Positions 39,562 through 42,500 of a stretch of DNA of 64,000 nucleotides are shown here, piece after piece. The notes beneath the pieces are model-generated. The model did not search any database, was not told where the DNA came from, and worked only from the letters and a program-made list of their open reading frames with translations. Position 1 is the first letter of the stretch; every line of letters begins with the position of its first letter. Source of the stretch: Quercus robur (Eukaryota > Streptophyta > Magnoliopsida > Fagales > Fagaceae); assembly GCF_932294415.1 (NCBI RefSeq), contig NC_065536.1:49600354-49664353 (forward strand), in the 5' to 3' direction. The position numbers were made by a program, and so were the translations under genes.

Positions 39562-42500
39562 ATGGTATCCAATACGTTTTTCCTTTTCTCAAATCTCTTT
39601 TCCTCAAATGCTACAAAATTTTCTCTTCCTCTCAGTCTCTTCTAAACTTAACATAAATCTCATTGATTTTTTTTGGTTTTTTTCAGGTGAAGTACTCCAG
39701 AGAACCCGACAATCCCACCAAATGTAAGTTCGACATTTTCATTTTACACTTCTCAGTTTCTTAAGCTTTTTCATTTCCCTGTCTCTTTATTTATTGACAA
39801 AACCATTTAGATTTTTGTTTCACCGTTTGTTGTTTGGATCTGATTGTTTGATTTATGTTTTGTTTTATTGCAGCCTGCAAGGCCAGGGGTTCAGACCTTA
39901 GGGTTCATTTCAAGGTACTATAATCTGTTACTGCCTCATCTTCAAATTTTAGTTCGTTTAGTATTAATATTAAGTGTCTATTTATGAGGGAAACATAAAT
40001 CTATGTTGTTTTATAGTGTTTGGTTTGCTTGGAGAGATAGAAGGAACATGTTTCACACGCATATAATCTGAGAAAATGCCACTTGAATGTTATAACATAG
40101 TAGGTATTCAAGAATCAGTATATGAAATTTCAATGAATTTGAAAGAAAATGTATTGGGAAGTAATGTCTAAATGCTCAGAATATCATCGTCGATTGTGTA
40201 AATTGTTGATAATAACCAGCTAATAGCTAATGTAAATGAACCAATTAATTTGTGTATTGAATTACAAATCATGATCTTAGTGAGAGTAGTGGCTTTATTG
40301 AGTTTGATGTAAGGTTGTTTTAGAGTATGCTAAACATTGTTGAAATTGCTTTTTTGTTTGATGTCTTTTACATTTTCTTTGGTTGTCGGGTAACCTGATT
40401 AAAAAAGCAGGGGTCTGTTGCCTATGTGAACAGGCCTCTCGTAAATGTCAGGGAAATCAAGTTTCATCGTTATTGGGTGAACCTCCGTTTGTTGTTTGTG
40501 GCTGAAGGTTCAGTAAATGATGGAACATTTTCTATATTTGGCTCTTGAACCTATTTTAGGATTTTGAGCTTGAATGCATATGCTAGGTTTCATTTTTAAA
40601 TTTGATTTTAGATCTTGATGAGAATATTGAATATTGAGTGAAAATCTGTTGATGATGTGACTTATCGCTGGTTTGTGTCTTTGGTTGCTGTACCTGATTA
40701 AAAAAGCAGGGACCTGTTGCCTATGTGAATAGGCCTCTCGTAAATGTCAGGGAAATTAAGTTTCATTGTTATTGGGTGAACCTCTGTTTGTTGTTTGTGA
40801 CTGAAGGTTCAGTAAATGATGTAACATTTACTATATCTGGTTCTTGAAGCTATTTTAGGATTTTAAGTTTGATGCGTATGCTAGGCTAGACAAGAATATA
40901 AAGTGAATATGTTGCCTATCCAAATTATCCCCAGTGAGTGTCTTTGGTTGCTATACCTGATTAAAAAAGCAGGGATCTGTTGCCTGTGTGAACGGGGCTC
41001 TTGTAAATGTCAGGGAAATCAAGCTTCATTGTTATTGGGTGAACCTCTGTTTGTTGTTTGTGATTGAAGGTTCAGTAAATGATGGAATATTTACTATATT
41101 TGGTTCTTGAAGCTATTTTAAGATTTTGAGCTTGAATTTGTATACTAGGTGTCATTTTTAGATTTGATTTTTGAACTGTATGAGAATATTGAGTGAAGAT
41201 CTGTTGCCTATGCAACTGTCTCCAATGAGTGTCTTTGGTTGCTACACCTGATTAAAAAAGCAGGGACCTGTTGCCTGTGTGAACGGGCCTCTCGTAAATG
41301 TCAGGGATATCAAGTTTCATTGTTTTTGGGTGAACCTCTGTTTGTTTTTTGTGACCGAAGGTTCAGTAAATGATGAAACATTTCTTATATTACATTAGTT
41401 CTATAAGTCTTTAAGCCTATCAATTGGTTTAAAGTGATTGTCTGGGAAATCAGTTGCACTTTTCTCAAGTGAGCCTCGGTTTCCGCATGTGACTAAAGTT
41501 TCAGTAATTGATGCAACATCTGAAGGATCTGGTTGGGTTTGTATTGATTCCTGTGGTGAGCTTGTTCGGGAGAGTTGAGGGATACTTGTCTTGCTATGAA
41601 ATTGCTTGTTAAGGAATAACTTGGAATTATCCCTCTTTATGAATTATTAATTGGAGTTACTGAGTCAATTATTCATTAAAAAAAACTGGTTAACGATTAA
41701 GTTTAGCACTTAGTTTTGGTACTTTAGGGTTCTCTTTGGCACACTTTTTTTCCCTATTTTTGAAGAATGAAATCAAGGTGGTGAGGATTTGAAGGTTCTG
41801 GGCTTTATGCCTCGTGTCTCTGCATTGCTCTGATTTTGCTTCTTTTTGAACGTATTTGATGAAGTATATATTGATAATTCCTTTGTTCTTTCTGGAACCT
41901 GATTAAAAAAGCAGTGCCCTTTTGCCTTTTGTGAAGAGGGTTCTCGTAAATTTCAGGAAAATTAGTTGCATTGTTATTGGGTGAACCTATGTAGTTTTTG
42001 GTTGCTGATGGTTCAGTAAATGATGCTACATATATTTTGAAAATTTGCTATTAGCTCTGCTGTGTACAGTTAATGTTGCAATGATGATTGGTCCTTTTTT
42101 TAAGCTTAATTGAATATATTATTTTTATCTTTCTCATGTATCTGCTCATTTATTATGGTGCTTATCTTAAAAGAGTTTGTCTATTTAATGTCCTTGTAGA
42201 ACACTAGAGAGACAGCATTTGCCATCAGGAAGTTGCCATTGGTAAAGGCCAAGAGGTATTTGGAGGATGTTCTGGCCCACAAACAGGCCATCCCCTTTAG
42301 ACGCTTCTGTCGTGGTGTTGGACGTACTGCTCAGGCAAAGAACAGACACTCTAATGGACAAGGACGCTGGCCTGTTAAGTCTGCTAAATTCATTCTAGAT
42401 TTGCTCAAGAATGCAGAGAGTAATGCTGAAGTAAGTTTCTTCTGGTTATTTGCTTGTATTGTCTTGGTAATCCTTACTGTTATCTTATAGTTTTGTTTTT

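Follow-up and report, generated by a model that had tools for sequence, protein, structure and literature searches.

A tandem cluster of snoR74-like box H/ACA units in an RPL17 intron of Quercus robur

What is known of the snoRNAs that most resemble the repeats described here? According to one study, the plant box H/ACA snoRNA snoR74 (Rfam family RF01231) occurs across the land plants but falls short of near-universal presence in the species examined (PMC5122169). Intronic snoRNA clusters are likewise known in plants and have been shown in rice, and the same literature says that plant intronic snoRNAs are few (PMC8351944, PMC5122169). The main text of one of these papers does not name snoR74; the same paper, a review, states that the A-loop of Arabidopsis carries a pseudouridine (PMC8351944). 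Outside plants, a horse study assigns both 28S U4431 and U4500 as targets to one snoRNA, SNORA21 (PMC12288042), and a compilation lists the yeast A-loop site 25S Psi2923 as guided by snR10 (PMC8307265).

Here we describe six repeated units in a stretch of 64,000 nucleotides of Q. robur DNA (NC_065536.1; hereafter, the window). They very probably form a tandem cluster of the guide snoR74 in intron 3 of RPL17, in which five units are plausible genes and a sixth has diverged, and whose products would direct rRNA modification. Five of the six units are full-length matches to snoR74 and agree with it in strand, boxes, and hairpins; the difference is that five to six copies lie here in a single RPL17 intron. 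Since intronic snoRNA clusters are already known in plants, the arrangement has precedent, and the array adds one more example of it. It is a genuine and mostly intact tandem snoR74 set, ordinary in kind, and it leaves knowledge of the class unchanged. An earlier note on this DNA knew of no description of the array. The family itself is already described (RF01231, PMC5122169); as to the array, no paper on it was recognised by title or opening of the abstract among the matches listed, in a search whose scope stopped short of supplements and most subscription journals.

The array and its host intron

Splicing of the seven RPL17 coding exons yields an uninterrupted, in-frame coding sequence of 552 nt with GT..AG introns. 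The 183-residue product matches Pfam family PF00237 (Ribosomal_L22, L22p/L17e; E 2.3e-32) and 31 distinct Protein Data Bank sequences (E up to 1e-60; best E 3.9e-118, chains named L17, L22, or uL22). Spliced coding sequence, Pfam, and PDB chains thus agree with the earlier placement of the array inside one RPL17 intron. All six units lie in intron 3, sense to the gene; each of the other five introns is 81-150 nt long.

39562..42958 (+): RPL17/uL22 host gene, seven coding exons, 183 aa (spliced CDS, Pfam, and PDB matches)
39562-39564, 39687-39723, 39874-39914, 42200-42430, 42512-42614, 42700-42767, 42890-42958 (+): RPL17 coding exons
39915..42199 (+): RPL17 intron 3, 2285 nt, GTACTA...TTGTAG, containing the entire array
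40394..40529 (+): unit 1, snoR74; H box AAATCA 40454-40459, ACA 40525-40527; RF01231 113 bits, E 4.4e-17 (64-kb window)
40693..40828 (+): unit 2, snoR74; H box AAATTA 40753-40758, ACA 40824-40826; RF01231 110.7 bits, E 1.3e-16 (64-kb window)
40956..41091 (+): unit 3, snoR74; H box AAATCA 41016-41021, ATA replacing ACA 41087-41089; RF01231 105.2 bits, E 1.6e-15 (64-kb window)
41247..41382 (+): unit 4, snoR74; H box ATATCA 41307-41312, ACA 41378-41380; RF01231 109.8 bits, E 1.9e-16 (64-kb window)
about 41395..41520 (+): unit 5, diverged snoR74-like copy; H box AAATCA 41447-41452, ACA 41516-41518; RF01231 20.3 bits, below gathering
41898..42032 (+): unit 6, snoR74; H box AAATTA 41959-41964, ACA 42028-42030; RF01231 96.1 bits, E 1e-13 (64-kb window)

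The earlier note had read the array as H/ACA snoRNAs and had proposed scoring the units with H/ACA models. In a covariance-model scan with Rfam, five of the six units (96.1-113 bits) exceed the RF01231 gathering score of 44 bits, and their E-values, from 4.4e-17 to 1e-13, are far past chance; the six-unit array is real, and family matches, boxes, and hairpins all support the H/ACA reading. An H box of the form ANANNA occurs in every unit and an ACA box in every unit except unit 3, which has ATA, exactly as first noticed. The unit borders were assigned by us within 40394-42033. The length of about 137 bases originally given for all six holds for five (136 nt in units 1-4, 135 nt in unit 6) and fails for unit 5, which is shorter, diverged, and below gathering at 20.3 bits. 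Units 1-4 are 91-94% identical to one another and 82-87% identical to unit 6, and unit 5 shares 69-77% identity with the others over 110-123 aligned columns. The first 7 nt of the unit precede the start of the RF01231 model, which is without the CCTGA/TCAGG lower stem that closes the 5' hairpin in all five good units (1-4 and 6).

A covariance model built from the five good units, the E-values of which are rough, recovers unit 5 at 36.6 bits (E 3.8e-6, 64-kb window). Its further matches are weak (32162-32260, E 0.099, the next best; 61389-61493, E 0.58), and we treat both as chance. Tandem repeats within a long intron could also be members of a dispersed transposon family that resemble a snoRNA by accident. 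Given five matches above gathering to a curated snoRNA family, and no other credible copy found by our model in the 64-kb window, we regard a transposon origin as extremely improbable; the check proposed at the outset, applied within that window only, gave it no support.

With the exception of the snoR74 units, a single Rfam match across the 64 kb reaches gathering level, a U4 spliceosomal RNA gene (RF00015, 114.9 bits) at 46814-46964 (+), about 3.9 kb past the RPL17 stop codon. Upstream of it stand CTCCCACATCG at 46737-46747 and TATAAAA at 46781-46787, two motifs that resemble the upstream element and the TATA box of plant snRNA genes. Matches to DdR4, ceN82, mir-126 (both strands), rliA, and KCNQ1OT1_1 did not reach the respective gathering scores, and we take them to be chance. 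Open reading frames at 29957-33321 (-) resemble, by eye, pieces of a copia-type retrotransposon, with reverse-transcriptase-like and integrase-like stretches.

Hairpins, spacers, and the history of the copies

When each unit is folded, the five good ones form a pair of hairpins with a pocket, whereas unit 5 folds otherwise; the earlier description of most units as two hairpins with an internal pocket therefore stands for five and not for unit 5. Standard pairs occupy 95.3% of 150 cells (30 pairs in five good units), against 37-57% in slid controls. Most changes in the unit stems retain a standard pair. Three stem pairs are changed on both sides among units 1-4 and 6; 13 of 500 shuffles match these values of pairing and double change. 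The three compensating pairs quoted earlier from units 1, 4, and 6 are all present. The stem pair at columns 20-43 is unpaired in three of the five good units. With five close paralogues as the sample, such covariation lends support to a conserved structure and is not proof of it. Fold z-scores are -4.2, -1.7, -0.8, -2.5, -1.5, and -2.5 for units 1 to 6, respectively, and those of controls from the same intron range from -0.9 to +2.2 (12 partly overlapping windows).

How did the copies arise? The spacers had been described as unrelated, which is wrong in part: those that follow units 1, 2, and 3 align with one another.

40530-40692, 40829-40955, 41092-41246 (+): homologous spacers, one after each of units 1, 2, and 3 (within 40530..41246, interrupted by units 2 and 3; alignment against shuffles)

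Each of these three spacer pairs scores above all shuffles (0/100), and for the remaining 18 pairs compared at least 13 of 100 shuffles reach the alignment score. The homologous spacers indicate duplication of unit plus spacer, and thus the sequence points to head-to-tail duplication across units 1-4. Within the duplicated segments, the units have diverged less than the spacers. Among copies 1-3, the differences in units and spacers are 8/136 versus 26/127, 11/136 versus 29/155, and 11/136 versus 20/126 for the three pairs (Fisher p of 0.0004, 0.010, and 0.057, respectively), and the units contain no gapped columns, against 8 to 36 in the spacers. Fewer differences and the lack of gaps point to constraint on the units.

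These comparisons bear on whether most of the copies are pseudogenes, with one working snoR74 (e.g., unit 1 or unit 6) and recent tandem copies that drift free of function. Recent duplication of unit plus spacer would by itself yield similar sequences, one of the three unit-spacer comparisons has a p value (0.057) above 0.05, unit 3 combines weak folding (z of -0.8) with an ATA box, and unit 5 has conserved neither its 5' half nor its 3' left guide strand. Against drift, each of the three pairs among copies 1-3 shows better conservation in the units than in the spacers that belong to them, and the gapped columns lie in the spacers only; the stem changes mostly preserve standard pairs; and neither the 5' left nor the 3' right guide strand varies among the five good units. 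We therefore consider widespread pseudogenization unlikely, though a possibility of some weight, and prefer the reading in which five units are plausible genes and unit 5 is a diverged copy.

Guide pockets and candidate rRNA sites

In H/ACA RNAs the guide pocket lies 14-16 nt upstream of the box. We took as upper stems AGGG.../...CTCT in the 5' hairpin and AACCT/AGGTT in the 3' hairpin, which set both pockets 14 nt from their boxes in units 1-4 and 6. The end of the chosen 5' stem coincides with the predicted fold. In the predicted folds the 3' upper stem extends by two more pairs (TGAACCT/AGGTTCA), and the distance is then 12 nt, not 14. The pocket borders were picked in knowledge of the distance rule and of known rRNA sites, and the target ranking was therefore not blind. 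The targets were eukaryotic rRNAs, two LSU rRNAs among them, from records titled as bacterial MAGs and not from a plant.

With the guide strands of unit 1 and these non-blind borders, CGACG-UU-GCUUUUU ranks first for the 5' pocket in both non-plant LSU rRNAs. Similarly, the A-loop stretch GAUUG-UU-CACC ranks first for the 3' pocket in both. The two predicted sites are 69 nt apart in each LSU. Two shuffle controls were applied, and one of them is weak for the 5' pocket site. In the first, based on stacking energy over six rRNAs, 61 of 200 shuffled guides equal the top site for the 5' pocket and 6 of 200 for the 3' pocket; in the second, a pair-score control designed after the first and requiring the match in both LSUs, 0 of 400 shuffled guides do so for either pocket. 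The two LSUs agree on one homologous site for 19 of 400 (5') and 24 of 400 (3') shuffled guides. When six stem registers per pocket were compared, the two LSUs agreed on a top-ranking homologous site in the register used here and in no other; the alternatives reach scores of up to 29 at other sites, and the 3' register that is two pairs longer loses the A-loop. The right side of the 5' pocket contributes three pairs only. The guide strands vary at the 5' right position in unit 3 and, in the last base, unit 6, and at the 3' left position in unit 4. For these variants the stacking-energy control finds shuffled guides as good in 69 of 200 (unit 3, 5'), 39 of 200 (unit 6, 5'), and 43 of 200 (unit 4, 3') cases, and with the unit 4 strand the A-loop of one LSU record (L008) ranks only third.

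In the pathway that we propose, processing of the RPL17 pre-mRNA would free each snoR74 RNA, which would then assemble with the H/ACA core proteins, as is known for the class. The 5' hairpin would present AAAAAGC and CGU to CGACG-UU-GCUUUUU of 25S rRNA, and the 3' hairpin would present UUGGGUG and CAGU to GAUUG-UU-CACC of the A-loop. The first U of each UU would become pseudouridine, that is, CGACG-U-UGCUUUUU and GAUUG-U-UCACC. The analysis itself shows the family, the structure, the boxes, the host intron, and the best-fitting rRNA sites; expression, processing, and rRNA modification are inferred. A target pair like that of yeast snR34 (Psi2826 and Psi2880) was dropped: counting against m5C2870 and Gm2922 put the pockets elsewhere.

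Unit 5 raises the alternative that a copy has been retargeted rather than left to decay, and has become a new H/ACA guide, of snoR74 descent but with different pockets. Both its H box and its ACA box have been kept, the predictions include a 9-bp stem CTTTAAGCC/GGTTTAAAG, and the 3' hairpin could be closed by GTTGCA/TGCAAC. Its two-hairpin fold is poor, however (-27.7 kcal/mol, z of -1.5), and three readings of its pockets gave no convincing rRNA site, with 50, 162, and 186 of 200 shuffled guides equal to it. We judge retargeting to be quite improbable and retain unit 5 as a diverged copy.

Contigs L002, L003, L004, L006, L007, and L008 are titled as bacterial MAGs, and their rRNA matches best as eukaryotic LSU; they are probably contaminants. 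In L005, a Planctomycetota MAG contig whose LSU rRNA matches best as bacterial, positions 182-212 nonetheless hold the eukaryote-like stretch GCGACGTTGCTTTTTGATCCTTCGATGTCGG. Record L001, of 3711 nt from a viral collection, joins a piece of eukaryotic LSU rRNA (positions 1-125) to other sequence and is possibly a chimeric assembly. A search with this piece matched 260 records of plasmids and 5 of phages, with 80-90% identity and, in the rows shown, 47% of the query covered; all being prokaryotic, none served as a target. Three pattern searches with rRNA patterns against the viral contig collection gave no match.

Comparison with SNORA21 and snR10

We converted the predicted snoR74 sites to human numbers by a yeast-human offset (4500-2923 = 4442-2865), without alignment to human 28S; the position pairs used (2923/4500 and 2865/4442) are assumed to correspond. 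On this numbering, snoR74 and the animal box H/ACA snoRNA SNORA21 (Rfam family RF00412) are predicted to share the same two rRNA sites, and the SNORA21 sites U4431 and U4500 are 69 nt apart, which is the spacing of the predicted snoR74 sites. The numbers 4431 and 4500 entered the literature query from our own prediction, and a paper that contains both is therefore not independent; that one snoRNA holds both is informative.

Prior to the search with target numbers, SNORA21 had been noticed as the next-best Rfam family for unit 1 (24.1 bits, E 0.069). Likewise, it is next best for unit 6 scanned alone (19.7 bits, E 0.034). For units 2, 3, and 4, a joint scan gave no SNORA21 row up to E 10. AAGC and UUGGGUGAA stretches are common to the two families in the alignment. 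On the other side, the scores of units 1 and 6 are far under the SNORA21 gathering score of 80 bits, and RF01231 is without a clan in our outputs. By its entry in a published table, yeast snR10 serves the A-loop uridine predicted here for snoR74, and among the tabulated yeast pseudouridines compared here none falls at the snoR74 5' pocket site (PMC8307265).

Thus, snoR74 may be the plant counterpart of SNORA21, and the likeness could also come from the shared target. Tentatively, and as an idea that we hold to be possible rather than probable, snoR74 and SNORA21 might be one ancient dual guide that predates the plant-animal split, a single RNA serving both helix 89 and the A-loop, the dosage of which would here be raised by a five-copy array tied to transcription of a gene for an LSU protein. 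Both pockets likely match the SNORA21 sites, which provides a testable link between plant and animal guide families. Finally, the tandem growth of one H/ACA gene within an intron of a ribosomal protein gene offers a test case for snoRNA dosage in plants and for the processing of intronic polycistrons.
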